DNA of 12,116 nt from Anaerolineae bacterium (GTDB lineage: Bacteria > Chloroflexota > Anaerolineae > JAFGEY01), in contig JAFGIE010000168.1 of the NCBI GenBank assembly GCA_016929775.1, positions 1 through 12,116 on the forward strand, read 5' to 3'. Below the pieces are notes generated by a model. The model was not told where the DNA came from, did not search any database, and was given only the letters and a program-made list of their open reading frames with translations. The number at the start of each line of letters is the position of its first letter. The first letter of the stretch is position 1. Made by a program: the position numbers and the translations under genes. This document shows, one piece after another, positions 1 to 12,116 of the stretch.

Positions 1-905
1 CGCTCGCCATACACTGCCAGAGCCTGCACCGCAGCCCGGAGCGCCAGCTGGGCGCGGTCCTCCGTCCCGCGGACGCCATAGCTGCGCACCGTCGTCTCGC
101 CCATCTGTGCCGTGACCTCGGCGAAGCGGCTGCTGGCGGCGAGGTAGAAATCGCGCGCTGGGCCAGCGGCGAACGTCACCGACTGGCGGCTGGCGCTGCG
201 ATCGCGGTCGATCTCGACGCCAGAGGCGACCAGGGTCAGGTTGGCGGGGGCGTCCACGCGCACGATGTACAGGCTCGCATCATAGTAAGTCACGTCTCCG
301 TTGGGCGAGGGATAGCCGACCTGCCACGCCCCATCGTCGTACACGGCGACTGCCGGGTACGCGGTATCGAGCACCAGCACCCGGTCAAAGTAGCCATACA
401 GGCCATAGTTTCCGCCCATCTCGGTCGGTACGGACGCGGTGTAGCCCATCTCGATCGTAACTTGGTCGCCAGGGGCAAGCGGCGTAGGCAGCGTCACGCG
501 CAGCGCGCTGTCGCCGTACTCGTAGACGGGCACCACCGCCTGCCCGTCTACCGCCAGCTCCGACACGTCCATCTCGGACCCGGCGAGGTTGGGGTAGAGC
601 CGAAAATAGATCGCCTGCAGCGCGACCTCCTCCCGGTTGGTGTAGCGCACCTGCTGGCGCCCCTCCAGGCGGGCGAGGTCCCGCGGGAGCGAGAGGTCCA
701 TGTGGTACACGGTCGCCCCCTCGAGCGCTGCCAGCGCTGCCCGCTCTCCCTCGACTAGGCCTTGGGCGTAGAGGCCCCGGTCGTCCCACGCTACCGTGGC
801 GGGGTCGAGCGCCGCCGGCGCGTCACAGGCAACGCACAGCGCCAGCACGCATGCGACCGCCAGCAGCCGGGCGATCGCAAGCAGGCGGCGTTTCCGTCCA
901 TCCAT
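1..905 (-). CDS. M1-like metallopeptidase, exported lipoprotein (N-terminal part, runs off the left edge)
   Basis: The 301 visible residues start at ATG 905 and remain open to the window edge, so the C-terminal part is missing. The start is supported by an AGGAGGA ribosome site at 911-917. Residues 1-27 form a basic then hydrophobic signal (RKRRLLAIARLLAVACVL) ending at a Cys (C27, preceded by CVA), a weak lipobox; C24 and C19 are alternatives. Residues from about 67 on (YHMDLSLPRDLARLEGRQQV, later YTNREEVALQAIYFRLYPN and YPSPNGDVTYYDASLYIV) match the all-beta N-terminal domain of M1 aminopeptidases. That domain precedes the zinc HExxH domain, which would lie outside the window, so catalytic competence cannot be judged. 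Inferred role: cell-surface peptide hydrolysis. It is last in a run of four same-strand genes, 86 bases after the PH-domain gene. An inactive M1-like scaffold remains possible. Confidence 0.82.
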   Translation of the reverse strand, partial: MDGRKRRLLAIARLLAVACVLALCVACDAPAALDPATVAWDDRGLYAQGLVEGERAALAALEGATVYHMDLSLPRDLARLEGRQQVRYTNREEVALQAIYFRLYPNLAGSEMDVSELAVDGQAVVPVYEYGDSALRVTLPTPLAPGDQVTIEMGYTASVPTEMGGNYGLYGYFDRVLVLDTAYPAVAVYDDGAWQVGYPSPNGDVTYYDASLYIVRVDAPANLTLVASGVEIDRDRSASRQSVTFAAGPARDFYLAASSRFAEVTAQMGETTVRSYGVRGTEDRAQLALRAAVQALAVYGE

Positions 906-991
906 CGCTCTCCTCCTGCGCCCTACTCGCGGTAGACCCAGTCGCCGAGAACCGGGGCCAAGTCACAGGCGCGCGTTCACGCCGTCCCTTC

Positions 992-1582
992 TCAGCGTTC
1001 CAGCAGCCGGCGGATGGTGCGCAGCTCGGCGAGGATCTCGGTCAGCCCGACCTCGCGCTTCCCTTCGGCTTCCGTCGCTGTGGGCGCCATGCTCCCGCGA
1101 AAGCGTCCCAGCGCGCGAGCGACCAGGTCGTAGACCTGCTGCGCGTCCTCCAGCCCAACCAGGCTCTGCTCTGCGCCGCCCGACGATCCGCTCATGCCGG
1201 CGGTCTGGATCTCCAGCGTGCCCAGGCCCAGGGAGCGGTCGAGCACATCGCGCTTGACCGTGATGTTGGTCACCGTGCGGTAGGGGACGTGCTTGACCGA
1301 GCGCGTCCAGATCCCGACGCGCACGATCGCCTGTTCATCCTGGATCTCGTAGCCCAGGCTGCGGTAGTACGGGCCCGCCAGGAGCATCGCGGGCGCCCAC
1401 CACAGGACGTCTAGGCCCCCCACGACGATCATTGTGATCAGCGAGGCGCCAAAGCCCTCTTCCAGCCCGATCGGGATCGCCAGGAACAGGCCCCCCAGGA
1501 GCACGAGCAGGGCGATGGCGGTGAACTCGATCTGCAGCTTGATGCGGTACTTGCGGTTGGGTGCGAACGTCTGTGTGTCCAT
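992..1582 (-). CDS. Membrane protein with bacterial PH domain (bPH2/DUF304 type)
   Basis: The protein is 196 aa. Residues 20-40 and 48-70 are two hydrophobic segments forming a membrane hairpin. They are followed by a PH-like domain at about 73-160 with the typical pattern YEIQDEQAIVRVGIW, VPYRTVTNITVKRDVLDRSL and GLGTLEIQTAG. This is the YdbS/DUF304 family architecture, whose biochemical function is generally unknown. A charged, helical C-terminal tail (about 175-196, EVGLTEILAELRTIRRLLER) may form a short coiled coil for self-association. A GTG at 1597 could also start the frame. ATG 1582 is preferred because AAAGGAAGG at 1586-1594 sits at correct spacing before it. It follows the COG1237-type lipoprotein by 36 bases and is probably co-transcribed with it. 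The PH domain would face the cytosol if the hairpin has both ends inside. Confidence 0.85.
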   Translation of the reverse strand: MDTQTFAPNRKYRIKLQIEFTAIALLVLLGGLFLAIPIGLEEGFGASLITMIVVGGLDVLWWAPAMLLAGPYYRSLGYEIQDEQAIVRVGIWTRSVKHVPYRTVTNITVKRDVLDRSLGLGTLEIQTAGMSGSSGGAEQSLVGLEDAQQVYDLVARALGRFRGSMAPTATEAEGKREVGLTEILAELRTIRRLLER

Positions 1583-1585
1583 GTG

Positions 1586-1594
1586 CCTTCCTTT
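1586..1594 (-). promoter_or_regulatory. Ribosome binding site deciding the PH-gene start
   Basis: On the minus strand this reads AAAGGAAGG. Its AAGGA core ends 6 bases before ATG 1582, while the alternative GTG 1597 lies upstream of it, so the shorter start is chosen. Confidence 0.6.
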
Positions 1595-1618
1595 CACTCC
1601 ACAGGTTCTCCGGATCGC

Positions 1619-2638
1619 TCAGGGCGCACCTGCGGCGCCGTCGATCTCGATCGTGCGCCCGACGCCGCCCTCGACATAGCCCTCCCCATATGCCGCCGCG
1701 AACGCCGCGATCGCCGCCTCGCCGGTGCAGTGGGTGGGGCAGGTCCTGATCACGTCCAGCGCGCGCAGGTCCTCGATGATCGCCGCCACGCTCGAGGCGG
1801 ACTGCTGCGCGAGGTGGAACCCACCGACGAGCAGGGCGATCTCGCCGGGGACGATCTCGCGTGCGCGCCGCACGATCGGTACGACGCCGGGGTGCGCGCA
1901 GCCGGTGACGACGATGCTGCCGCGCGCCGTCTCGAGCACCAAGGCTTGCTCGATCACGCCGCCGCCCAGCTCGCCGGTCGTGTGCGCGCCAGGTACGACC
2001 TCGACCGTGTCTGCGCGCGCGACCAGCGATGTCCGCGCCGCGATCTGCTCCTTCAGGTGCGCCGGCAGGGCGGTGGGCGCGTACACGGTCGGCGCGACGC
2101 CGGTCTCGAGCAGGCCCAGCAAGCCGCCCACGTGGTCGCCGTGCTCGTGCGACAGGACGATCGCCTCGATCCGCGCCGGGTCGAGGCCCAGTGTCCGCAG
2201 GTTGTGCAGCAGCGCGGTCGCGTCGCCGCCGGTGTCGAAGAGCAGGACGTGGGCGCCGTACTCGATCCAGGCGGCGAACCCCCACTCTGCCCGCAGGCGC
2301 GCGTCGTACGGGACGTTGTCGTAGACGATCGTCAGGCGCGCCCCCGGCAGATCGGCGCGCTCGCGTTGGGGAGTGGGCGCGGGAAGCGTGGGCGGTTCTG
2401 TTGGAAGAGCGGTGGGCGCTGCGGTTGGCCTGACCGCCGCGGTCGTCCTGACCGCCGCGGTCGTCGTAGGCGTGACCGCCTGACCCGCGGCGGTGGGCGT
2501 GGTCGTGACGGTCGCGGTCGGCGGGCTCGACGTGGCAGTTGGGGTATCGACCGGCGGAGATGCCGGCGCAGCGGTGCATGCGGCGACCAAGACCGCCGCG
2601 ATAGACAGGAGGGCGAGCGGGTACGAGCGCCGCGACAT
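1619..2638 (-). CDS. Metallo-beta-lactamase-fold hydrolase lipoprotein, COG1237 type
   Basis: The protein is 339 aa. Residues 1-21 are a lipoprotein signal with a good lipobox (VLVAAC, C21). A disordered Thr/Pro/Ala-rich linker (about 22-95) tethers the enzyme to the outer face of the membrane. The MBL domain (about 100-335) has the full metal set: HEHGDH at 164-169, TGCAHPG (H249), GGFHL (H275) and PTHCTG (H303). The late motifs are those of COG1237 proteins, which include enzymes annotated as dihydropterin-ribofuranosylaminobenzene 5'-phosphate synthase. That name comes from archaeal cytosolic relatives and should not be transferred to this exported protein, whose substrate is unknown. Start ATG 2638 is preferred over GTG 2647 because AGGAGGT at 2646-2652 sits 7 bases before it. 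That site overlaps the stop codon of the preceding MBL gene, indicating co-translation. Confidence 0.88.
   Translation of the reverse strand: MSRRSYPLALLSIAAVLVAACTAAPASPPVDTPTATSSPPTATVTTTPTAAGQAVTPTTTAAVRTTAAVRPTAAPTALPTEPPTLPAPTPQRERADLPGARLTIVYDNVPYDARLRAEWGFAAWIEYGAHVLLFDTGGDATALLHNLRTLGLDPARIEAIVLSHEHGDHVGGLLGLLETGVAPTVYAPTALPAHLKEQIAARTSLVARADTVEVVPGAHTTGELGGGVIEQALVLETARGSIVVTGCAHPGVVPIVRRAREIVPGEIALLVGGFHLAQQSASSVAAIIEDLRALDVIRTCPTHCTGEAAIAAFAAAYGEGYVEGGVGRTIEIDGAAGAP
2430..2465. repeat. Two perfect tandem 18-bp units inside the lipoprotein linker
   Basis: Two identical adjacent 18-bp units (2430-2447 and 2448-2465) encode a repeated six-residue Thr/Ala/Val/Arg block around residue 58-70 of the lipoprotein. 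The unit is a whole number of codons, so copy-number change would only alter linker length. It is a coding micro-duplication, not a CRISPR repeat. Confidence 0.8.
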
Positions 2639-2645
2639 CGGTAGC

Positions 2646-2652
2646 ACCTCCT
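2646..2652 (-). promoter_or_regulatory. Ribosome binding site overlapping upstream stop codon
   Basis: AGGAGGT on the minus strand lies 7 bases before ATG 2638. Its first bases share the TAG stop (2653-2651) of the preceding MBL gene, so termination and re-initiation are probably coupled. Confidence 0.75.
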
Positions 2653-3442
2653 ATGACGGGTGGGACAGGTAACGGGCCATCGCGCGTACGTTCTCTTTGC
2701 GCAGCAGTCCTCTCTCTGACCACGAATCGAATGGGGCGGGGAGGCGCTGCGTGAGCGCCGCCTCGGGGGCGCGCCCGTCGCGCAGGGCCTCGACCACCAG
2801 GGCCTGGAGCACGTGCAGATAGAGCCGCTGCGCGGCGATCTCGGCCTTGCCGCCCACTGGGCCATGCCCTGGCACCACGACGTCCATGCCTGACCGCTCC
2901 CACTCGGCCAACCAGGCGCTCCAGGCCTCAGGATCGGTGTCATCCAACGCAGGCTGGCAGCCAAAAGAGGCCAGATCGCCAAGGAACCCGATCCCGTCCC
3001 CTGGCAGCACCAGGTAGCAGTCGCCGGCGCTGTGGGCGTGCCCGGGTGCGATCAGGTCTGCCCGCCGCGCGCGCCCGTGGAAGGTGAGCCGTCCGACAAA
3101 GGTCTGCACAGAGAGCCGGCAACCGCGTGCCAGCAGCTCCTGCCCGGCGTGGTCCGTGGCGACGACGATCGCGTCGTTGTCAAAGACATCGTCGTTGGCG
3201 CAGTGCCCGGCGTGCCCGTGGCTGTCGATCAGGTAGGCGACGGACCGCCCGGTAAGCGTCTCCGCCGCGGTGCGCAGCTCGCCTGCTGCCTCGGACGAGG
3301 GGGCGGCGTCAAAGATCAGCGTATGTGCACCCAGGTCGACGATCCCGGCATTGGCGTGCGCCACGCCGCCCGGCTGTGCGAGCGCCGCCCATACGCCCGC
3401 TGCGAGGGGCTGCAGGTCATAGTGTGTGTGCGGTCTGTGCAT
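2651..3442 (-). CDS. Metallo-beta-lactamase-fold protein with altered metal motif (Gly for Asp)
   Basis: The protein is 263 aa, with no signal peptide, so probably cytosolic. The MBL fold spans about 10-200. Visible metal motifs are SHGHAGH (H75, H77, H80), PGHAHSAGD (H137), FLGD (D156) and VPGHGPVG (H193). The usual HxHxDH motif carries Gly79 where the second-metal Asp normally lies. The codon is GGG at 3208-3206, two substitutions away from GAC or GAT. All other ligands are present, so it may bind one metal, use an altered mechanism, or be a binding protein. Spacing resembles the glyoxalase II-like/quinoprotein-relay-associated branch; the substrate is unknown. An in-frame ATG at 3481 would lie upstream of the likely transcription start. 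ATG 3442 has GGGAG 6 bases before it and is preferred. It heads the run that continues with the COG1237-type lipoprotein 12 bases downstream. Confidence 0.85.
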   Translation of the reverse strand: MHRPHTHYDLQPLAAGVWAALAQPGGVAHANAGIVDLGAHTLIFDAAPSSEAAGELRTAAETLTGRSVAYLIDSHGHAGHCANDDVFDNDAIVVATDHAGQELLARGCRLSVQTFVGRLTFHGRARRADLIAPGHAHSAGDCYLVLPGDGIGFLGDLASFGCQPALDDTDPEAWSAWLAEWERSGMDVVVPGHGPVGGKAEIAAQRLYLHVLQALVVEALRDGRAPEAALTQRLPAPFDSWSERGLLRKENVRAMARYLSHPS

Positions 3443-3471
3443 CGGGAACTCCCAGGTAGCCGTTGTCCCCC

Positions 3472-3480
3472 ATTCTACCA
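3472..3480 (-). promoter_or_regulatory. Extended -10 promoter for the MBL operon
   Basis: The minus strand reads TGGTAGAAT: the extended TG element, then TAGAAT (5 of 6 against TATAAT, at 3477-3472). No convincing -35 lies 16-18 bases upstream, as is common for extended -10 promoters. Transcription would begin near 3465, leaving a leader of about 20-25 bases before ATG 3442. Confidence 0.5.
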
Positions 3481-3627
3481 TGCCCGCACAACGAGCGCAT
3501 CATGCAAAGGGACGAGATCGCTCATCCAAAAGGCGCGCGATCTTATCGGATATCCTATGCGTGCAAGCGTGTCAACGGGCAATTCGCCAGGGGCGTGGCT
3601 CTTGAGGGGGTGGGATGGTGCGAGGGA

Positions 3628-3656
3628 GTAGAGACGCCCCGCCGGGGCGTCCCTAC
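3628..3656. repeat. 29-bp palindromic intergenic element
   Basis: The arms are GTAG-A-GACGCCCC (3628-3640) and GGGGCGTC-C-CTAC (3644-3656), around a 3-base loop GCC. They form a 12-bp stem with a single A/C mismatch. It lies 12 bases past the stop of the small membrane protein gene and upstream of the MBL operon promoter. No T-run follows on either strand, so it is not a classic intrinsic terminator. From memory it resembles short dispersed palindromes seen in Chloroflexota and cyanobacteria. It could protect the 3' end of the upstream mRNA or act in termination. Confidence 0.75.
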
Positions 3657-3668
3657 CATGCGTCCCGA

Positions 3669-3914
3669 TCAAGATGCGCCGTTCGACAGCGCCATGCCCA
3701 GGTACAGGCACAGTCCCGCAAAGGCGATAAAGCCGATCGCGGCGAACACCTTCAGACAGCCGAACCCGAACCCGTCGTTGGCGGCGTTGCTCCCGATCTG
3801 CCGGTACGCGTCCCGGTAGCCCTCCGCCCTCCCCCTGTACAGTGCGACCTGGACTGCGAGCATAAAGAAGACCAGGATCCCGATGGCGATCAAGAACACG
3901 GTTGGCCCTGTCAT
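3669..3914 (-). CDS. Small two-helix membrane protein of unknown function
   Basis: The protein is 81 aa. Hydrophobic helices at about 5-24 (TVFLIAIGILVFFMLAVQVA) and 58-76 (FAAIGFIAFAGLCLYLGMA) flank a short polar loop rich in Arg, Tyr and Gly (about 26-52). I do not recognise the family. Start ATG 3914 has AAGGAGG at 3921-3927 with 6-base spacing, which is strong. An upstream in-frame ATG at 3974 would add about 20 polar residues and has no better site. It is flanked by gaps on both sides (226 bases to the MBL gene, 246 from the regulator), so it is probably a single-gene transcript, with the 3628-3656 palindrome just after its stop. Confidence 0.72.
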   Translation of the reverse strand: MTGPTVFLIAIGILVFFMLAVQVALYRGRAEGYRDAYRQIGSNAANDGFGFGCLKVFAAIGFIAFAGLCLYLGMALSNGAS

Positions 3915-3972
3915 GTGCCCCCTCCTTGGTTCACAATCCGCGGCTCCTGCCATCTCTCGCACTTGCATGCCC

Positions 3973-3978
3973 ATGGTA
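3973..3978 (-). promoter_or_regulatory. Weak -10 candidate for the small membrane protein gene
   Basis: TACCAT on the minus strand sits in a GGTA..ATGGG context also found at the two better promoters in this window. The hexamer 17 bases upstream (TAGGTT) is a poor -35. The 246-base gap 3915-4160 shows nothing else convincing apart from a small 5-bp hairpin at 4112-4125. Confidence 0.22.
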
Positions 3979-4160
3979 CCGCATCGGAGGGCGCGAACCT
4001 AGACCGGGCGGGCCACAGCTGCCGGCAGGATCAGCGTGCAGAGCAGGGGGTAAGCAGGAGGAAAGGCGTGGACAGGGCCCAGATCCCACGCGATAGCACG
4101 AATGAACACGACCTGCCTACGCAGGACCGTGGCGTCGTTGGGCGTTCCGGCGGCGCGGCG

Positions 4161-4895
4161 CTAGCACACGAGCCGGTACCCGCGCCCGTGCACCGTGGTC
4201 AGGTGGACCGGTTGGTGCGGGTCGTCCTCGATCTTGACCCGCAGGCGGAAGACAAGGCGCTCCAGCCGCCCGTCGGCGCTCGCCTGTCCAGGCGGGACCT
4301 GCTCGCCGTATACGGCTTGGATCACGTCGGCTGTCTCGCAGACCTTGCCCTCGTGGGCATAGAGGTGGGAGAGCAGGCGGTACTGCAACGGGGAGAGGGA
4401 GACCGGATCGCCCTTGCGGTAGACCAGTCCCTGCTCGAGGTCGATCGCCAGGTCGGGCGGGGCGTCGATCGGCCCCTTTGGACGGCGACCCAACACGACC
4501 TCGATCGCGTCCATCACTGCCTGTGGGCCATCGCGCTTGGGGACCAGGTCTTCGGCCAAGGGCGCCGCGCCCCGTGCGCGCAGCGCGTGCCGTGTGGCCT
4601 CTACCGTGTCGTACTGGGTGATCACGATGCACGGGATCCCGCGTGCGGACGCGGCTTTCGCCACCAGCAGCCCGCTGAAATCGCGGTCGTTCTTGTGGTC
4701 GGTCAGGCGCAGGTCCGCGAGTACCAGGTCGATCTGGCGCCCTGCGTGTGCGGGATCTGCCTCCGCAAGGGCAGCCTCCGCCGTCTGCACCGAATCCACT
4801 TCCACGACGGCATAGTCCTCCAGTTCGAGCAGCAGTCGCAGCGATTCGCGGTAGTCGGGATCGTTATCGGCGAGCAGTACGATGGCCTTGCTCAC
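4161..4895 (-). CDS. OmpR/PhoB-type response regulator (REC + winged helix)
   Basis: The protein is 244 aa. The receiver domain (about 3-135) has acidic pocket D10/D12, phosphoacceptor D61 (VLADLRL), switch T93 (VITQYD) and K120 (VPKRDG), so it looks phosphorylatable. The loop after D61 is several residues longer than usual (LTDHKNDRDFSG). The C-terminal winged helix (about 148-244) has LSPLQYRLLSHLYAHEGKV and the typical terminal VHGRGYRLV wing. It is the only DNA-binding output of the operon and is presumably phosphorylated by one or both kinases upstream. The start is GTG 4895, with GGGAGGGG at 4901-4908 well spaced. The GTG overlaps the stop of the preceding receiver gene (GTGA), so the two are co-translated. 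The target promoters are unknown; autoregulation at 10783-10811 is possible but not shown. Confidence 0.93.
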   Translation of the reverse strand: MSKAIVLLADNDPDYRESLRLLLELEDYAVVEVDSVQTAEAALAEADPAHAGRQIDLVLADLRLTDHKNDRDFSGLLVAKAASARGIPCIVITQYDTVEATRHALRARGAAPLAEDLVPKRDGPQAVMDAIEVVLGRRPKGPIDAPPDLAIDLEQGLVYRKGDPVSLSPLQYRLLSHLYAHEGKVCETADVIQAVYGEQVPPGQASADGRLERLVFRLRVKIEDDPHQPVHLTTVHGRGYRLVC

Positions 4896-5281
4896 GGGTC
4901 CCCCTCCCATATCTCTTTTACACAGCGCGCCAGCGCACGCCGGATCGTCCTGGATGACCACGACTTGGGCCAGTAGTCGTACGCGGTTCCCTCGCGGAGC
5001 ACAGCGCGCGCTTCGCGGGTCGAGGGATCGGCTGCCACCACCACCGCGTAGCGCCAGCCACGGGCGCGCAGGGCGCACGTGACCGCCGCCACATCGGCAT
5101 GACCGGTGGCGTCGACCAGCAAGAGCGCCTCGGGGTCCGCCGCAGGCAGGTGCTCCAGGCACGCCGGATAGTCGTCTTGGCAGGGGATCGTCTCGACTGC
5201 GATCGCCGCCCACGCGGCGGCAGCCACCGCATTGAGCCAGTACGGGTCCCGTCCAATGGCGACGACCCGATGTCGGTTCAT
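4892..5281 (-). CDS. Stand-alone degenerate receiver-domain protein
   Basis: The protein is 129 aa, a single CheY-like module. Strand 1 (RVVAIGRDP) carries one acidic residue, D12, instead of the usual adjacent pair. The probable phosphoacceptor is D57 (LLLVDATG) and the conserved lysine is K106 (DYWPKSW). The Thr/Ser switch position is Ala (about A84, VVVAADP). It could be a phosphate shuttle or sink between the kinases and the OmpR-type regulator, or a non-phosphorylated binding partner. ATG 5281 overlaps the stop of the large kinase gene (ATGA), with GAGGA at 5291-5295 upstream. The 3' end overlaps the next start by GTGA. The frame is open much further upstream, but that part is a shadow of the kinase gene. 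Low sequence conservation makes the exact switch residues uncertain. Confidence 0.8.
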   Translation of the reverse strand: MNRHRVVAIGRDPYWLNAVAAAAWAAIAVETIPCQDDYPACLEHLPAADPEALLLVDATGHADVAAVTCALRARGWRYAVVVAADPSTREARAVLREGTAYDYWPKSWSSRTIRRALARCVKEIWEGDP

Positions 5282-8200
5282 TGCCCTGCTTCCTCGGCTA
5301 TAGGAAGGCGGACCAGCACGGTCGTATCGCCCGGTCCTGGACGTTCCAGCGTGATGCTTCCCCCCTCGTGCTCGATCATCCACGCCGACAACAGCGCACC
5401 GATCCCCATGCCCGGTGAGCCGGGCTGCTGTGAGAGTAGGGTCCGCGGGATCGGCTCGCGGAACAGCTTGCGCTGGATCGCGGAGGGCACACCGGCGCCG
5501 GTGTCGCGGATCCGCACCTCCGCCCACCGTTCGTTGCGCGTGCCGTGGATGGCGATCGTGCCCCCCTCGGGCATGGCGCGGGCGGCGTTCTGCAGCAGCC
5601 CCTCGAGCGCCGAGATCAGCCAACGGCGGTGCCCGCGCACCTGTACGCCGCTCAGCCCCTCTACCGCCGTCTCGATCGTGACCGTCGCTGGGCTGCCCGG
5701 CAAGGAGGGCTGGGCTTCGCGCTGTGCCATCTCTTCGAGCAGCGGCGCCAGGGGCAGCGGTTCCGGCTCCCACTCCCACGACTGTGCGGCGCGGGTCGGC
5801 GCGGACGCGACCTCTTTGGCGAGGCGGTCGATGGTCTGCAGGGTTTCGGCGATGCCCGCTGCGGTCTGCGCCGGGTGCGCCGCCTGAGCCAAGCGCTTCT
5901 CGAGGATCGCGACGTGGTTGCGGATCGCCGCGCCCTTGCCCTCCAGTGAGTGCCGCCACGCGCCTTCGACCATCGTCATCCAGTGCAGGAAGCGGCGCTG
6001 TTCCGTCCGCTTCCTGGCGTGGTCCAGGGCATCCTGCAGCCGGGCGTCGCGCAGCATCAGCCCCGCCAGGTCGGCAAAGACGGCGACCGCTTCCAGTTCC
6101 TCCCCCTCGATCGCCTTCTGGCGGCGGTAGCCAGCGACGAGCAGCCCGGGGCGCTCGCCCTCCGCGCGCAGTGGACACACGATCAGGGTGTGCATCCCCT
6201 CCTGCCGGACCAAGCCCGCCTCGGCATACCGCGGATCGTCCTCTGCGACCTGGATCACCACCGGATCGGGCGCGTCCAGGAGGGATGCCATGGCCTCGTG
6301 GTCCAGGACATAGCGCTCGACCGGTTGTCCCAGCCCCGCCCCGCCGCGCGCGCCGAACGTCGCCTGTGCGGCGTCGTGCTCGATCAGCAAACAGGCGTCC
6401 AGTCCCAGCGTCTCCCGGATCGTCGCCGCGATGCGGTTCAGGATCCAGGCGGTGTCATGCCGCTCGCGATACGCCTCGAACACCTCGACGATCGCGCGCA
6501 GCCGTTCGTTCAGCCGCTGCCGCTGCCGTTCGAGCACGTCGAGCAAGTAGAGCCGTTGGATTGCCGCTGCCACCCGGCTTCCGGCAAGCTGCAGCCCGAC
6601 CAGATCCTCACGGGCGAAACTTGTCGTTCGCCGGAAGTTCAGGAACAACATGCCTACCGTTCGCGGCGTGCGCTGTCCCTCGGGCAGTACTTGCAGGCGC
6701 AGGCCCACGAACGCCCGGATCCCTTCGCGCTGCGTGAGCCGGCTCTGCCAGCGCGCGTGCTCGCCCGACAGGTCGTTCACGATCAACAGCCCGTCCGGGG
6801 CGCTGTCGATCGCGTCGTGCACGCCGCCGCCCAGCCCCCCACGCGGGATCTCCCACGGCGTGCGCAGCGTCCCGACGTGGATGCACTCGCCGAGCACCAA
6901 CCGGGAGCGCGCGCCGGGCACCGTGGGGTCGTGCGGGTAATAGACTGCCAGGTCGGCGTGCAGCGCCGCACGCGCCTGCTCGGCAAAGAGACGGTAGATC
7001 TCGGCGCGGTCCTCGCAGGTCGCGATCTGCCGGTCTAGCGTCTTCCACACCTCGCTGACGCTCTCTTCCAGGGCGTCGTGCAGGACCGCCGCTGCCTGCG
7101 CGGCAAAGGCTTGCCACAGGCTGAGGTGGTGTTCCGCAAAGCGCCACGGCTTGAGCGTGTGCGTGAACAGCACGCCCGACACACGGCGCCCGTGGATCAG
7201 GGGCAGGGCCAAGATCGACCGGATCCCAGCCTGGCGGATGCTTTCCTTGACGCGCGGATCGCGCTGTACGTCCTCGATCGTCACGCGCTGACCTGTCTCG
7301 ATGACGTAGCGGCTGATCCCCTCGTGCTGCCGCGGCTCCTCGAACTCGTCCACGTAGGTTGGCGGCATCACCGGGCGCGCCTTGTAGAGCGTGCCGTCCG
7401 GGGCGTGCAGGATCAGCGAGGTATAGTCGTGCCCGATCAGCTCGTGCGCCTGGGTCACGATCGCGCGTTCGACCTCCGCAGCGCCCCGCCTGCCTGCCAG
7501 CGCCGCCAGCGCGCGCTGCAGCTGCCGCGCCTCTTCGAGCTGCTCCAGATTGCGGATCACGACGGAGACCTGGTTGGCAAAGGCCTGCATGATCTCGACG
7601 TGCTCGCGCGTGTAGCGCACGTTCTCCTGCCCCGTCGAGGCCTCGATCACGCCCCACAGCTGCTCGCCGACAAAGACCGGGACGGCGATCAGCGATTGCG
7701 CGGGCCCACGCGCTGGGTGTGGGGGGGCGAGCTGGTGCTTTTGCCGGAAGGACGCATCGCCGTACGGCAGGCCGAGCGGTTGGCCTTCGCGCACCACGTA
7801 CTCTAGGATCCCGTTTTCGCCCTGGCGCGGCGGCAGCTCCAGGTCGGTGTCTTGCAGCTTGCAGAACCTGAACGTCAGGATCGCGTTTGCGCTGTCGTAT
7901 TGGGCTACGACAAAGCTGTCCAGCGCAGGCAGCAGCGCGCGCGCCTCGGCATATAGGCGTGTGTACAGCGCATCGTGGCTCTGCGCCGCGCCGATCACCT
8001 GCCCGGCGCGCACCAGCGCCTGCAGACCGAGCCGCCGCTGGCGTTCCCAGCCGTACTGCGCCGCCATCTGCAGGTTGATCGCCAGGTCGTCGGTGTTCTG
8101 GATGGGCTTGGTCAGGTAGCGGTGCGCGCCGGCGTCCATCGCCTGCTGGCCCAACTCGACGTCTCCCCAGCCGGTGAGGATGATCACCTCGATCTCGGGA

Positions 8201-8427
8201 TACAGCTCGCGCAGCCGGCGCATGGTCTCGATCCCGTTTGGGGGCGGCATCACCTGGTCGATCAGGGCGACGTCATAGCGTCCTCCGCACGCCGCCGCCA
8301 TTTGCAAAGCTTGTGGCCCGTTGGCGGCGTCCTCTACTTCGATCCCCTTGCGTGCGAGGCGTGCGCATAGTTGGGCGCGAAACCTGTCGTCATCATCGAC
8401 CAACAGGAGCCGGATCGCTTCCTGCAT
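5278..8427 (-). CDS. REC-GAF-GAF-GAF-GAF hybrid histidine kinase with degenerate H-box
   Basis: The protein is 1049 aa, with no membrane segment, so cytosolic. The receiver domain (about 4-125) is canonical: D11-D14, D57 (LIDQVM), T85, K107 (TKP). Four GAF-like sensor modules follow at about 137-293, 315-455, 473-628 and 657-795. The helical DHp-like region (about 810-875) has H826 in RHSLEGK, lacking the acidic residue that normally follows the phosphorylated His. The ATPase domain (about 885-1045) has N947 (LLQNAARAM), G1 DTGAGVP (975-981) and G2 GMGIG (1006-1010). ATP binding looks possible; autokinase activity is less certain. The start is ATG 8427 because GGAGGG at 8436-8441 is 8 bases before it and only 2 bases from the alternative GTG 8433. 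It overlaps the S1-kinase gene by 35 bases. Individual GAF boundaries are approximate, and ligands are unknown. Confidence 0.92.
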   Translation of the reverse strand: MQEAIRLLLVDDDDRFRAQLCARLARKGIEVEDAANGPQALQMAAACGGRYDVALIDQVMPPPNGIETMRRLRELYPEIEVIILTGWGDVELGQQAMDAGAHRYLTKPIQNTDDLAINLQMAAQYGWERQRRLGLQALVRAGQVIGAAQSHDALYTRLYAEARALLPALDSFVVAQYDSANAILTFRFCKLQDTDLELPPRQGENGILEYVVREGQPLGLPYGDASFRQKHQLAPPHPARGPAQSLIAVPVFVGEQLWGVIEASTGQENVRYTREHVEIMQAFANQVSVVIRNLEQLEEARQLQRALAALAGRRGAAEVERAIVTQAHELIGHDYTSLILHAPDGTLYKARPVMPPTYVDEFEEPRQHEGISRYVIETGQRVTIEDVQRDPRVKESIRQAGIRSILALPLIHGRRVSGVLFTHTLKPWRFAEHHLSLWQAFAAQAAAVLHDALEESVSEVWKTLDRQIATCEDRAEIYRLFAEQARAALHADLAVYYPHDPTVPGARSRLVLGECIHVGTLRTPWEIPRGGLGGGVHDAIDSAPDGLLIVNDLSGEHARWQSRLTQREGIRAFVGLRLQVLPEGQRTPRTVGMLFLNFRRTTSFAREDLVGLQLAGSRVAAAIQRLYLLDVLERQRQRLNERLRAIVEVFEAYRERHDTAWILNRIAATIRETLGLDACLLIEHDAAQATFGARGGAGLGQPVERYVLDHEAMASLLDAPDPVVIQVAEDDPRYAEAGLVRQEGMHTLIVCPLRAEGERPGLLVAGYRRQKAIEGEELEAVAVFADLAGLMLRDARLQDALDHARKRTEQRRFLHWMTMVEGAWRHSLEGKGAAIRNHVAILEKRLAQAAHPAQTAAGIAETLQTIDRLAKEVASAPTRAAQSWEWEPEPLPLAPLLEEMAQREAQPSLPGSPATVTIETAVEGLSGVQVRGHRRWLISALEGLLQNAARAMPEGGTIAIHGTRNERWAEVRIRDTGAGVPSAIQRKLFREPIPRTLLSQQPGSPGMGIGALLSAWMIEHEGGSITLERPGPGDTTVLVRLPIAEEAGQ

Positions 8428-10717
8428 GCTCACTTCCCTCCGGTAGCTCCAGTACGAACGTCGTGCCCCATAGGATATAGCTCTCGAGCACCCGCAGGCG
8501 CCCGCCCAGGCTGGTAGCGATCTGGCGCGAGATCGTCAGCCCCAGCCCGGCGCCGCCCGAACGTGTGGTGAAGCCAAAGTCAAAGATCCGTTCCCAGAGC
8601 TGATAGTGCGCCCCCGGTCCGCTGTCGGCAAAGCGCACCTGCACGGGCCATTGCGCACCGGGATGGTACGATAGGTCTACGGTCAGCGTGCTGTGCTGTC
8701 CCAGATCGGCCATCTGCTGGATCGCGTTCAGGATCAGGTTCATGTAGATCTGGCGCAGCTGGCTGGGGCGGGCGTCCACGGGGGGCACGCCCGTCGCTGC
8801 GCGCACTTTGAGGATCACGTTGTGGCGCTGTGCGTCGGCGCGCAGCACGCGCGCGATCCCTTGGCCCAACTCGTCCAGGTCGACCGCCTGCGGTTCATCG
8901 CTCGCGGTCAGGCTGAGGTACTGGTCCCGCAGCAGGCTCGCTTCGCGCTGTGCGCTCAGGATCTGCTCCACTGCCTCTTCCATGCTGTGGATCAGGGTCG
9001 CGTCCTTGGCCTTCTCGGGCCAGCGTGCCAGGTCGCGCAGGTCCTCGTGCAGGCCTTCCGCGATGAACTGGATCGCGCCCAGCTTGTTGTTGATCTCGTG
9101 GATCGCGCTGCTGATCAGGCGACCGATCAGGTTCTGCGCCTGCCACGGCTGCAGCGCGTGGCTCAGCCGCCGCTCCTGTAGGATCCCGGCGATCAGGTAC
9201 GCCGCGTTGGATGCCTCGCGGCGCCCCGTACGCGTAAAGGCGCCCTGATCCTTGAGTAGCACCAGCCCATAGTGGGCGGCGCCCACCGGCGGCACGGGCA
9301 TGCCCAGGAACGCGCGAAAGGGGCGCAGGGCGAGGAGCCGCTCGAATTTGCGCGAATCGGGGGGCACGCGCTCGCAGATCTCCTGACCCCGCTGCAGGAC
9401 ATCCTTGAGCGGGCTGTGGATCAGATCCGGCGGCGCCTGCTCGATCGGGAAGGGCGCCCCGCTTGCTCCCTCGACCTCTGGGCGCCGTTGGCCCGGCTCC
9501 AGGCGCAGCAGTACCGCCACGTCCGCCCCCGTGCTGTACGCCAGGCGCTCCAGCGCCGCGTCCAGCGTCGCCTGCTGTTCGGGCAGCAGGGGGGGCGCCT
9601 CACGCTCTCCCTCATCCTCGGGACTGCCTGGGGCGACGCGCGGGATCGCGGCTTCGGGAAAGTGGCGTGTGCGCCCGGGTTCGGCGACCGGCTTGCCGTC
9701 GCGCAGCGCCCGCAGGACGGCGAGCAAGCCGTCGCGCAGCGCATCGCCATCGCCCTTGGAATAGACGTCCACTCCGCTCTCGCGCAGGCGCGCCCACGCC
9801 TCCGGTTGGTCGTGCAGCGGGGCTGGTTCGAGAACCATCGCCAGGTAGGAAGATGGGCTCTCCTCTTGGAGCTGGCGGACGAGCTGGTGCCCCTTGGGCC
9901 CGGGCAGGTTCAGGTCGAGCAAGACCAGGTCGAACGGCGTCCCTTGCTCGCGCACCGCACTCAAGCCGGCGATCGCGTCTGCCGTGCGCGTGACCTGGCA
10001 CCCGTTCCGCTGCAGGAGGCTCTCCAGCCCGGCGGCAAAGGTCTCGTCGTCCTCGACGATCAGCGCCTGCAGCGGGGGACCGGCGATCGCCTCTGCATCG
10101 CCGCCAAGCCGCAGCAAGCGGAGGCGGACGTCGGTGGGCAGCAACTCAGCCAGGGTCGCCGCGTTTGACGCGCTGCGGTCGGCGCTTGCCCACAGCCGGC
10201 GCTGCATCTCGGCCTCGCGCCGCTCGAGCAGGGCGCGCACATTGAGTCCCATGCGCCGGCGCGACACGTCAACGCGCGAGACGATCGCCTTGACCCGGTC
10301 CTCGATCCACAGCCAATCCTCGATCCGGGCTTCGTCGTCGAGGGGCAGTGCGGAGCGGGGCAGGTAGCCCTCCACGCCCGGCTCCAGCTCGACGAACGCG
10401 CCGCGCTCGGTCAGGCCGACCACGCGCCCCTGCACCTCGCGCCCCGGACGGTAGCGATCCTCGGCGTGCTCCCACGGATCGCGCTCCGCCAGGCGCAGGC
10501 TGAGCTCCAGCTCCTCGTACGCCGGGTTATAGCCGACCACGATCGCCTCGCGCACTTGGCCCACATAGGCATCCACTGGCACGCGAGCGCCCCACGCGAT
10601 CTCGCGGTTGCGGATAATGGCCTTGGGCCCGTCCTCGACCCGACCGAGCAGCCCCGACGGGATCGACCCCGTGATCTGGACGGTGACTCGGCTGTTGATC
10701 GTATAGTCGATCAGCAC
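8393..10717 (-). CDS. S1-S1-REC-GAF-histidine kinase fusion
   Basis: The protein is 774 aa, with no membrane segment. S1-like module 1 (about 9-75) ends in ELELSLRLAERDPW. S1 module 2 (about 90-160) is clear: GREVQGRVVGLTERGAFVEL, GVEGYLP and RRRMGLNVRAL, the OB-fold RNA-binding pattern of ribosomal protein S1. The receiver (about 216-335) has D223/D224, D268 (LLDLNLPG) and K321, but Glu297 in place of the Thr/Ser switch. A GAF-like region (about 380-515) precedes a canonical H-box (AIHEINNKLGAI, H540). The ATPase domain has N664 (LILNAIQQ), G1 DSGPG (698-702) and G2 GGAGLGL (721-727). The kinase core looks active. The start is GTG 10717 with GGGAGGGAG at 10721-10729. The frame is open to 11140 but that stretch overlaps AbiEii and is not protein-like. 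It is first in the operon, with its own promoter. Suggested, unproven: the S1 modules sense RNA or ribosomes. Confidence 0.93.
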   Translation of the reverse strand: MLIDYTINSRVTVQITGSIPSGLLGRVEDGPKAIIRNREIAWGARVPVDAYVGQVREAIVVGYNPAYEELELSLRLAERDPWEHAEDRYRPGREVQGRVVGLTERGAFVELEPGVEGYLPRSALPLDDEARIEDWLWIEDRVKAIVSRVDVSRRRMGLNVRALLERREAEMQRRLWASADRSASNAATLAELLPTDVRLRLLRLGGDAEAIAGPPLQALIVEDDETFAAGLESLLQRNGCQVTRTADAIAGLSAVREQGTPFDLVLLDLNLPGPKGHQLVRQLQEESPSSYLAMVLEPAPLHDQPEAWARLRESGVDVYSKGDGDALRDGLLAVLRALRDGKPVAEPGRTRHFPEAAIPRVAPGSPEDEGEREAPPLLPEQQATLDAALERLAYSTGADVAVLLRLEPGQRRPEVEGASGAPFPIEQAPPDLIHSPLKDVLQRGQEICERVPPDSRKFERLLALRPFRAFLGMPVPPVGAAHYGLVLLKDQGAFTRTGRREASNAAYLIAGILQERRLSHALQPWQAQNLIGRLISSAIHEINNKLGAIQFIAEGLHEDLRDLARWPEKAKDATLIHSMEEAVEQILSAQREASLLRDQYLSLTASDEPQAVDLDELGQGIARVLRADAQRHNVILKVRAATGVPPVDARPSQLRQIYMNLILNAIQQMADLGQHSTLTVDLSYHPGAQWPVQVRFADSGPGAHYQLWERIFDFGFTTRSGGAGLGLTISRQIATSLGGRLRVLESYILWGTTFVLELPEGSEHAGSDPAPVGR
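8436..8441 (-). promoter_or_regulatory. Ribosome binding site fixing the large kinase start
   Basis: GGAGGG on the minus strand lies 8 bases before ATG 8427 and only 2 before GTG 8433, favouring the ATG. It is inside the 3' end of the S1-kinase coding sequence. Confidence 0.6.
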
Positions 10718-10720
10718 GCG

Positions 10721-10729
10721 CTCCCTCCC
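10721..10729 (-). promoter_or_regulatory. Ribosome binding site fixing the S1-kinase GTG start
   Basis: GGGAGGGAG on the minus strand, with its GGAGG core 6 bases before GTG 10717. It explains why translation begins at GTG and not at the far-upstream in-frame codons. Confidence 0.65.
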
Positions 10730-10782
10730 GGGATCTGGAGTGTGAGGCGCCAGGACGTGCGTCCCGAAGGGCCTCCTGTCCC

Positions 10783-10811
10783 AGTGTACCATGCCATCGA
10801 CCCACGGGCAA
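10783..10811 (-). promoter_or_regulatory. Sigma-70-like promoter of the signalling operon
   Basis: The -35 is TTGCCC (10811-10806, 4 of 6), the spacer is exactly 17 bases, and the -10 is TACACT (10788-10783, 4 of 6) preceded by TGG, an extended -10. The predicted start is near 10776, giving a leader of about 55-60 bases before GTG 10717. It separates the kinase operon from the AbiE genes transcribed in the same direction. Confidence 0.6.
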
Positions 10812-10845
10812 CCCCCGGCGATCCCCCGAACTGGGCGTGGAGAGG

Positions 10846-10887
10846 CCCGCGGGCGACGCGGGGGTCCGCTCTTCCCAAGAGACCGGA
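10846..10887 (-). terminator. Possible terminator hairpins after AbiEii
   Basis: Two hairpins lie just past the AbiEii stop. One pairs 10865-10873 with 10877-10887 (9 bp, one 2-base bulge, loop of 3). The other pairs CCCGCG (10846-10851) with CGCGGG (10857-10862). Neither is followed by a T-run on the minus strand, so intrinsic termination is uncertain. Confidence 0.3.
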
Positions 10888-10902
10888 TGGCTTGCGCTCG
10901 CG

Positions 10903-11706
10903 TTACCGGATGGTGCGCAGGACGCGCTCGCGTGACAGCAGGTCGGCGCTGGCGCCCTGCGCGAGGAACGGCTCCACATCGCCGACAACCTGGTCCCAGT
11001 CCGCGGCAACCAGGCGATCTCGCAGCGCCGCCCGCCAGCTCTGGTCGGTGAGGGTTCCGAAGGACCCGCCCGTCTGCTGCAACGCGTTGTTGAGCATGGT
11101 GAGGTTGGGCGGGGGCCAATCGGGATCGCTCAGGTACCATACCAAGTCATAGATGTCTCGTCCCTTGAGGTAGGGACGCTGTAGGATGGCGTGGAGCTTG
11201 CCTGCAAGCAAGGAAGCGCGGTCGTGGTGTTGGAGGTGGAGGATCACGTGCCTCCGGACGATGGTCGTCTCTAGCGCTGCGCCAGCAGGCGGGCGGGTGT
11301 CTACCTCGATCTTGACGGCGAGCACCTGGCTGCGGTGTGGCGAAAGGCCCAGCTCGTACAACAAGCCCGGGAACCGTACGTACGCACTATGCACGGTCCT
11401 TTGGTCGTTGACGCGCAGCTCGACGGGATACCCTTCCGCGGTCAGCTGCGTATTGATCGCTTTCAAGTAGGTGCGAAGGTGGTACAGGTCCTGGGCGTGC
11501 TCCAGGGCGAAGTCCAGGTCCTCCGAGTAGCGCGGGCTCGCATAGAGAAAACGCAGCGCCGTCCCGCCGTGGAACGCGAGTGGGATCATTGCGCCGGCAC
11601 GCTGGAGGCATTCCAGGATCCGCGCCTGGAGGTACTCCCGTGCCACGTTTCGCGCCTGAACCGGATCCTGTGCGGCGCGGGTCAGCTCGCGCAAGTATGC
11701 TTTCAC
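10903..11706 (-). CDS. abiEii: AbiEii-family nucleotidyltransferase toxin
   Basis: The protein is 267 aa, with the family motifs present. Nucleotidyltransferase motif I is HGGTALR (46-52) followed by PRYSEDLDFAL with D63 and D65. A later strand VKIEVD (131-136) supplies further acidic residues. The C-terminal helix motif includes K170 and GRDIYDLVWYL (182-192). AbiEii proteins are the toxins of AbiE type IV systems, known for growth inhibition and phage abortive infection; MenA-type relatives modify tRNA ends. The nucleotide and target here are not known. The start is GTG 11706, which overlaps the stop of the upstream antitoxin gene as GTGA with a weak GAGG site. The motifs look intact and full length. 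It is same-strand with the kinase operon downstream, but a promoter lies between them. Confidence 0.92.
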   Translation of the reverse strand: MKAYLRELTRAAQDPVQARNVAREYLQARILECLQRAGAMIPLAFHGGTALRFLYASPRYSEDLDFALEHAQDLYHLRTYLKAINTQLTAEGYPVELRVNDQRTVHSAYVRFPGLLYELGLSPHRSQVLAVKIEVDTRPPAGAALETTIVRRHVILHLQHHDRASLLAGKLHAILQRPYLKGRDIYDLVWYLSDPDWPPPNLTMLNNALQQTGGSFGTLTDQSWRAALRDRLVAADWDQVVGDVEPFLAQGASADLLSRERVLRTIR

Positions 11707-12116
11707 ACTGCCTCGTACGCCAGGGACTCGATGCGTGCCATCTCGGCGATGCGCGCCGCCGCGCGCGCCAGCTTGGGACGCTGCGCGCGATCGGCTAGGT
11801 GGCGCAGCGCGTCCAGGTCCAGCAGGTCTAGGTGCTGCAGGCGCAGCCCCTCGAGGTAGGTGCGCGCGTCGCCGCCCGGCTCCAGGTAGGCGAGGTCCAG
11901 CAGCGCCTTCTCTGGGGTGGCGACGTAGGCGTGCTGCCCCTCGCCCATTGCCGTGCGGCGGTAGCCGGCAAGGAGGTCGGGCTTGATGTGGCGATACGTG
12001 TAGGTCCCGAGCGGCGTCTCCCAGCGCCCGGGACGCGCCGTGGTGACACTGGTGGTCACCGGCGCGTACTCTGGGATCAGCCCATAGTGCGCCAGGGCCG
12101 ACTGCAGGCTGACGTA
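11703..12116 (-). CDS. abiEi: AbiEi-family antitoxin (C-terminal part, 5' end outside window)
   Basis: 137 residues are visible. The frame is open to the right edge, so the N-terminal winged-helix DNA-binding domain is missing. The visible part begins YVSLQSALAHYGLIPE, the hallmark segment of AbiEi-type antitoxins. It continues with a domain containing GTYTYRHIKPDLLAGYRR and YVATPEKALLDLAYLEPG, also typical of the family. AbiEi proteins normally bind their own promoter to repress the operon and antagonise AbiEii. They do not need to form a stable complex with the toxin. The stop overlaps the toxin start by 4 bases. A Met-like GTG at 12059 is internal and should not be taken as the start. The promoter and operator must lie beyond the window. 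Confidence 0.88.
   Translation of the reverse strand, partial: YVSLQSALAHYGLIPEYAPVTTSVTTARPGRWETPLGTYTYRHIKPDLLAGYRRTAMGEGQHAYVATPEKALLDLAYLEPGGDARTYLEGLRLQHLDLLDLDALRHLADRAQRPKLARAAARIAEMARIESLAYEAV

Follow-up and report, generated by a model that had tools for sequence, protein, structure and literature searches.

A histidine kinase with two N-terminal S1 modules: candidate lead component of a two-component conflict or stress system in Chloroflexota

Introduction

What would a sensor histidine kinase do with a pair of S1 modules at its N terminus, and which genes does it serve? The question is raised by a gene in a contig of an Anaerolineae bacterium (Chloroflexota; GCA_016929775.1, JAFGIE010000168.1, positions 1 to 12,116), analysed here as one stretch of 12,116 nucleotides and referred to below as the window. 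The gene encodes two S1 modules followed by a receiver (REC), a GAF-like domain and a histidine kinase core, and we refer to its product as the S1 kinase. To our knowledge, sensing of RNA via S1 domains is not known for histidine kinases of bacteria, and such a protein may let cells respond to the state of their own RNA. An earlier reading of the sequence took in the kinase alone; here we add a fixed gene order which, in relatives, leads to outputs ending in TIR, caspase or CHAT domains. We propose, with a probability of roughly 0.45, that an RNA-binding-type sensor histidine kinase leads a two-component-gated conflict or stress system of Chloroflexota.

Domain layout and kinase core

The S1-S1-REC-GAF-kinase layout read from the letters in an initial annotation is confirmed as that of one minus-strand gene by Pfam, hhalign, hmmsearch and alignment. 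Within the 774-residue protein, Pfam calls S1 (PF00575) at residues 90-161 (E 2.4e-11), Response_reg at 219-294 (1.7e-12) and HATPase_c at 651-760 (5.9e-16). The first S1 module, the GAF and HisKA receive no Pfam call in the window kinase; GAF is called as PF13185/PF01590 in many of its relatives. Compared with solved kinases, the phospho-acceptor and catalytic regions match, for example, ZraS (9jfj_A) over profile positions 512-760 (E 9.8e-37).

Conservation was counted over the non-gap rows of a 66-member alignment, made of 31 database proteins (the window's included) and 35 loci from Chloroflexota genome draws, with P0002 (the window itself) and the partial P0010 and P0029 left out. The canonical H, N, G1 and G2 boxes described earlier hold over the aligned members: H540 is present in 66/66, with Glu after it in 62 rows and Asp in the other 4, N660 and N664 are present in 64/64, and D698, G700, G702, G724 and G726 in 63/63. 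By sequence, the window protein has what identifies a histidine kinase, namely a phospho-acceptor His with its acidic residue and the N, G1 and G2 boxes. In the receiver, D268 is found in 63/63 rows and K321 in 63/64; rows P0020 and P0032 have no REC. A second alignment (A1), which also leaves out those two rows, supports the GTG start, as 20 of its 28 other rows have Met in the residue-1 column.

Family and distribution

At E <= 1e-3 a single-sequence search returned 246 proteins, a set with many ribosomal S1 proteins and other kinases, and 28 full-length relatives, 24-60% identical to the window kinase, were aligned. When 7,995 candidates were scored with a broader family profile, 436 proteins matched at E <= 1e-30, and all 120 of those listed carry both S1 and HATPase_c, so that the S1-kinase fusion is not a chance event. 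The layout belongs to a conserved family in which the S1 pair recurs at the N terminus of a sensor kinase. A fusion artefact or a mis-called gene is ruled out, as the fusion is present in all of these listed database proteins and in loci from many genomes.

Where a taxon is shown, family members belong to Anaerolineae, Caldilineales, Chloroflexi and Chloroflexia; most rows show none. Genome draws (overlapping one another within Chloroflexota, and with centres included in the counts) contained an S1 kinase at E <= 1e-50 in 5/400 genomes for the phylum of a Caldilineaceae genome, and in 5/82, 5/28, 7/251, 1/5, 3/46 and 23/396 genomes for further draws. The family was found in 0/257 genomes of a phylum draw around a record titled Cyanobacteria bacterium, a search that had no positive control. 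Around Anaeromyxobacter, 6/195 genomes of the phylum draw match over the REC-GAF-kinase part only, with the S1 pair uncovered. Matches from a profile scan of genome contigs were mostly S1-only, and among those listed only L001 and L002 were kept as family members (L numbers denote loci, P numbers proteins). L047, whose match spans 13-759, was rejected as a member, its genome having given only kinase or S1 pieces. Neither a plasmid nor a phage home was found: none of 1,194 matching plasmid records (72,556 searched; the listed rows match the kinase part) and none of 11 matching phage records (50,697 searched) covers 80% of the query.

Type of the S1 modules

In ribosomal bS1, domains 1-2 dock on the ribosome and domains 3-6 bind mRNA. 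Module 1, compared as a family alignment with 43 ribosomal-S1-type proteins drawn from the matches of the single-sequence search, aligns with the fourth ribosomal S1 domain (hhalign probability 99.1, E 1.5e-18). A 19-member module-1 profile run against PDB sequences with hmmsearch matches E. coli bS1 at E 3.7e-40 summed over domains, with independent E-values of 3e-5, 1.8e-12, 2.8e-6 and 1.4e-6 on domains 3, 4, 5 and 6; on domain 2 its matches are insignificant, and on domain 1 there are none. Module 2 also matches bS1 domain 4 (hhalign, E 7.1e-27), as well as PDB chains 7qgh_t and 6h4n_y at residues 264-349. Judged by these profile comparisons, both S1 modules are of the bS1 domain 3-6 type and not of the domain 1-2 type.

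The modules are also well kept within the family. Mean pairwise identity over 59 members (the 7 partial rows being left out) is 0.397 and 0.395 for the two S1 modules, which is above REC (0.308), GAF (0.319) and the dimerisation/phospho-acceptor region DHp (0.270), and below HATPase (0.481). In module 1, R38, E39 and W82 are present in 64/64 rows and R36 in 62/64. We take the RNA-contact positions of the PNPase S1 domain to be F19, F22, H34, D64 and R68. On that assumption, module 2 of the window keeps three of the five (F108, D150 and R154); across the family, module 2 has a Tyr or Phe at the F19-equivalent in 24/64 rows and His at the H34-equivalent in 22/64.

Operon organization

The S1 kinase is the first of four overlapping genes that span 10717-4161 on the minus strand, with starts chosen in this analysis (Table 1). 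The same order was followed in 36 loci, the window included, in 4 of which the sequence runs no more than 150 bases past the kinase stop. A second, partner kinase is present in 32/32 loci with downstream sequence; 28 of these partners are open reading frames of over 950 amino acids with a kinase-profile match, and 4 were found by tblastn (L150, L153, L154, L155). In L116 and L145 a short listed open reading frame lies between the S1 kinase and the partner. All 6 partners scanned with Pfam have GAF and HATPase. The His of the partner H box aligns in 28/28, followed by Glu or Asp in 10 and by another residue in 18, the window included. Because the acidic residue is often missing there, we infer that phosphate comes more reliably from the S1 kinase than from the partner.

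Downstream of the partner, a receiver-bearing output gene follows in 27/27 testable loci, a count outside which stand 5 loci that end inside or just after the partner. Partner and output are separated by two genes in L125 and by one small REC in both L151 and the window, where Pfam has no match to the 129-residue protein. The profiles used to find these genes were built from 10 partners and 6 outputs that they then find. Separately, P0309 (1430 amino acids) joins GAF, HATPase, REC and TCAD9 in what is apparently a partner kinase-output fusion.

Table 1. Features of the S1-kinase operon in the window (all on the minus strand)
Feature	Positions	Strand	Remarks
S1-S1-REC-GAF-histidine kinase gene	8393..10717	minus	774 amino acids, GTG start
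Likely ribosome-binding site, GGGAGGG	10723..10729	minus	By sequence, 5 bases before GTG
S1 module 1, residues 5-83	10469..10705	minus	Profile comparison; R36-x-R38-E39 and PW (81-82) nearly invariant in family
S1 module 2, residues 88-165	10223..10456	minus	Pfam PF00575
Receiver (REC), residues about 218-330	9728..10066	minus	D268 is the phospho-acceptor position
GAF-like domain, residues about 385-505	9203..9565	minus	Pfam calls in relatives, none in window protein
Dimerisation/phospho-acceptor region, H box HEINNKL (H540)	8888..9145	minus	Alignment and solved-kinase match
HATPase_c catalytic domain, residues 651-760	8438..8767	minus	Pfam; N, G1 and G2 boxes intact
Partner REC-multiGAF-HATPase	5278..8427	minus	1049 amino acids from chosen ATG; degenerate H box RHSLEG, lacking an acidic residue after H
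Small REC-like protein, 129 amino acids	4892..5281	minus	Start overlaps partner stop; REC-like by eye, resembles 126-residue REC of L151
Output protein, REC and OmpR-type winged helix	4161..4895	minus	REC BLASTP E 3e-12 to L123 output receiver

Output proteins and their ends

Pfam was run on 24 outputs and calls REC in 23, weakly in L141 (E 0.045), with none in L098; for L096, L097 and L117 the output was identified by profile or tblastn matches only. Across the wider family the output is mostly a REC-TCAD9 protein with exchangeable ends (TIR, caspase, CHAT, winged helix). TCAD9, an APH-like kinase, scores above the curated Pfam cut-off in the outputs of 14 loci (L095, L098, L113, L115, L116, L119, L120, L122, L141, L142, L143, L144, L146, L152) and below it in those of L149 and L150. 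Of the 17 rows in the output alignment (A3), 10 have an intact HGDLHxxN kinase motif. The end is TIR in L144, caspase C14 in L095, and CHAT with a sub-threshold TIR in L141. The output of L187 has CHAT, that of L147 is EAD7-REC-CHAT (missed by the output profile), and that of L123 joins REC to a TRADD-associated 2TM domain. Winged-helix outputs are found in L146, L149, L150, L151, L153, L156 and the window. In several loci the next gene encodes a STAND-like ATPase, often with a winged helix.

A search for output homologues gave 230 at E <= 1e-20. The 120 listed include 7 with TIR (one being the L144 output itself), 3 with a SIR2-like domain, 4 with caspase and 3 with EAD7, where we take PF01582 to be TIR and PF13289 to be SIR2-like. 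As neighbourhoods were covered only for relatives of up to about 33% identity, these effectors are evidence about the wider family.

Co-occurrence and cousin loci without S1

The S1 kinase and the output gene also travel together across genomes. In 74 genomes of two orders, 8 have the S1 kinase, 12 the output gene and 7 both, so that the output is found in 7/8 genomes with the S1 kinase versus 5/66 without (one-sided Fisher 3.3e-6, ignoring relatedness); in the eighth S1-kinase genome the contig ends in the partner.

Loci with the output and no S1 kinase are informative about the place that the S1 pair occupies. L180 (3898-11322) is an S1-less cousin that encodes a PocR-HATPase kinase, a small REC, a partner-type kinase and a REC-TCAD9 output. 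Because its first kinase has PocR at the matching position, the S1 pair appears to occupy the place of a sensory domain, and this one clear case favours, by analogy, a sensing role for the pair. Kinases adjoin the output in L181, L182, L184 and L186 as well. In L181, an ATPase is joined to a kinase as an AAA_35-GAF-HATPase fusion (7725-10544) beside REC-TCAD9.

Genomic surroundings

Directly upstream of the kinase operon, on the minus strand at 10903-12116, lie an AbiEii toxin gene (PF08843) and the end of an AbiEi-type gene, and PADLOC likewise matches these upstream genes to AbiEi/AbiEii. No AbiE was found among 13 scanned upstream proteins of 10 other loci. On the two window kinases PADLOC gives weak SduA matches over the REC regions only. 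No MoxR or vWA was called in the window proteins or in scanned neighbours, many neighbours being unscanned and the window ending at the AbiEi gene.

In L098, L120, L121 and L122 the S1 kinase is directly preceded by two same-strand genes of 364-402 amino acids, recurrent in size and position, and the second gene of the pair in L098 has a sub-threshold Band_7 match. Elsewhere on the minus strand of the window there are two adjoining metallo-beta-lactamase-fold genes (1619-3481) and a gene for a bacterial PH domain protein (bPH_2; 992-1597). For structured RNA, the window has no Rfam match at gathering scores and no tRNA.

Proposed mechanism and alternatives

The sequences contain an S1 pair joined to REC, GAF and a kinase core with intact motifs; downstream come a partner kinase and a receiver-bearing output whose end varies by lineage (TCAD9/APH-like kinase alone or with TIR, caspase or CHAT; winged helix; 2-TM). 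One possible mechanism is that the S1 pair binds single-stranded RNA or mRNA, for which cellular RNA set free when translation is arrested, products of RNA decay or RNA from an invader would be candidate signals. RNA binding would alter the dimeric kinase state and autophosphorylation on H540, and the phosphate would pass to the receiver of the output protein, perhaps by way of the REC within the S1 kinase, the multi-GAF partner serving to integrate signals. The window output would act as a DNA-binding regulator, and the outputs of relatives as death or immune effectors. We infer the part of RNA as signal, the direction of phosphotransfer and the immune role from domain content and gene order. 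In its strongest form, an RNA-sensing two-component immune or programmed-death system whose S1 array reads RNA or translation state and whose phosphorelay fires TIR, SIR2, caspase or CHAT effectors or a transcription factor, the proposal appears rather unlikely.

Several observations weigh against the proposed conflict or stress system. The effector evidence comes from relatives about 26-33% identical to the window kinase, and the output of the window itself is REC-winged helix with no TIR, caspase or TCAD9 by Pfam; TCAD or EAD domains and swapped effectors, absent from the window, appear in relatives as TCAD9, EAD7, TIR, C14 and CHAT. PADLOC, run on the outputs of the window, L116 and L123, matches none of them, the 5/66 genomes above have the output with no S1 kinase found, and in several loci the upstream genes are housekeeping ones (DNA polymerase I in L125, GATase in L116, phosphofructokinase in L153). 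The acidic pair of the REC is imperfect, with D223 in 55/63 and D224 in 45/63, and the Thr/Ser usual after strand 4 seems, by eye, to be missing from the REC of the window clade. The housekeeping neighbours and the winged-helix outputs, in the window as in the six other loci, would fit an ordinary stress-responsive transcriptional two-component system, to which the TIR, caspase and CHAT ends captured elsewhere by relatives would be irrelevant; we regard this as unlikely for the system as such. Since the window output is transcriptional, an ordinary stress role for the window copy is quite possible. Against an ordinary transcriptional system, TCAD9, EAD7, CHAT, TIR and caspase recur in the outputs of sister loci, and Kaur et al. 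2020 (PMC7159879) link this repertoire to conflict systems.

The role of the S1 pair is likewise debatable. The window clade retains the canonical RNA-contact positions of S1 only in part, module 2 of the window having R105 for the first aromatic and P120 for the histidine (the F19- and H34-equivalents), and the S1 modules lack a net positive charge, being near zero (-2 and 0 in the window). Together with the unusual near-invariant R-x-R-E and PW pattern of module 1, this would suit OB folds that have been turned to dimerisation or to binding proteins or small ligands, with no RNA involved. That possibility is made improbable by the best matches, which are the mRNA-binding domains of bS1, by the F22-, D64- and R68-equivalents of module 2 (kept in 57, 45 and 55 of 64), and by the H34-equivalent of module 1, which is Arg in 62/64. 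RNA binding could instead be the output or a tether, the kinase and REC controlling RNA or polysome binding or keeping the signalling complex attached to ribosomes or mRNA, with GAF as the entry point of the signal. Such an arrangement would fit the place of REC after the S1 pair in aligned members with both, and scanned partners do supply several GAF sensors; a separate receiver-bearing output is nevertheless already present in every testable locus, and L180 has a sensory PocR domain at the corresponding N-terminal position, which leaves this quite improbable. We retain, tentatively, an RNA-binding-type S1 kinase that would sense and lead a two-component-gated conflict or stress system.

Comparison with known systems

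Hybrid-type sensor kinases with an N-terminal REC-GAF share the same core, and the relatives from the Anaeromyxobacter draw match the profile from 195-219 to 742-760; they differ in that their matches leave the S1 pair uncovered. Domains 3-6 of ribosomal bS1 are the closest sequence match for both modules among solved chains and ribosomal S1. In comparison with bS1, the window protein has two modules only, no domains 1-2, a kinase fusion and some changed RNA-contact positions. ANTAR response regulators (AmiR/NasR, EutV) place an RNA-binding domain in a two-component pathway with RNA binding as the output of the regulator, whereas here an RNA-binding-type module sits on the kinase N terminus and not on the response regulator output.

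In open-licence PMC literature, the titles and abstract openings of the matches listed contain no description of the S1-kinase fusion or its operon. TCAD9 is mentioned in PMC10910872. If the proposal is true, the family would connect phosphorelay signalling with RNA state as well as with TIR, caspase and CHAT outputs, and it offers a concrete assayable protein for each step. The nearest systems for the downstream part are the NTP-dependent conflict systems (VMAP, iSTAND, TERNS3; PMC7159879, PMC8195603), which share EAD, TCAD, TIR, caspase, STAND, APH-like kinases and receivers with the loci described here. Kaur et al. 2020 (PMC7159879) count receivers, APH-like kinases and OB folds of the S1-like kind as effectors, and report that they found no histidine kinase domains in the vWA-associated ones. 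In the eLife 2021 follow-up (PMC8195603), OST-HTH-S1 effectors appear and receivers are proposed to work independently of histidine kinases. The systems described here differ from those in that histidine kinases head the operon: conflict systems sharing these effectors have been reported without histidine kinases (PMC7159879), and the S1-kinase family would join both.

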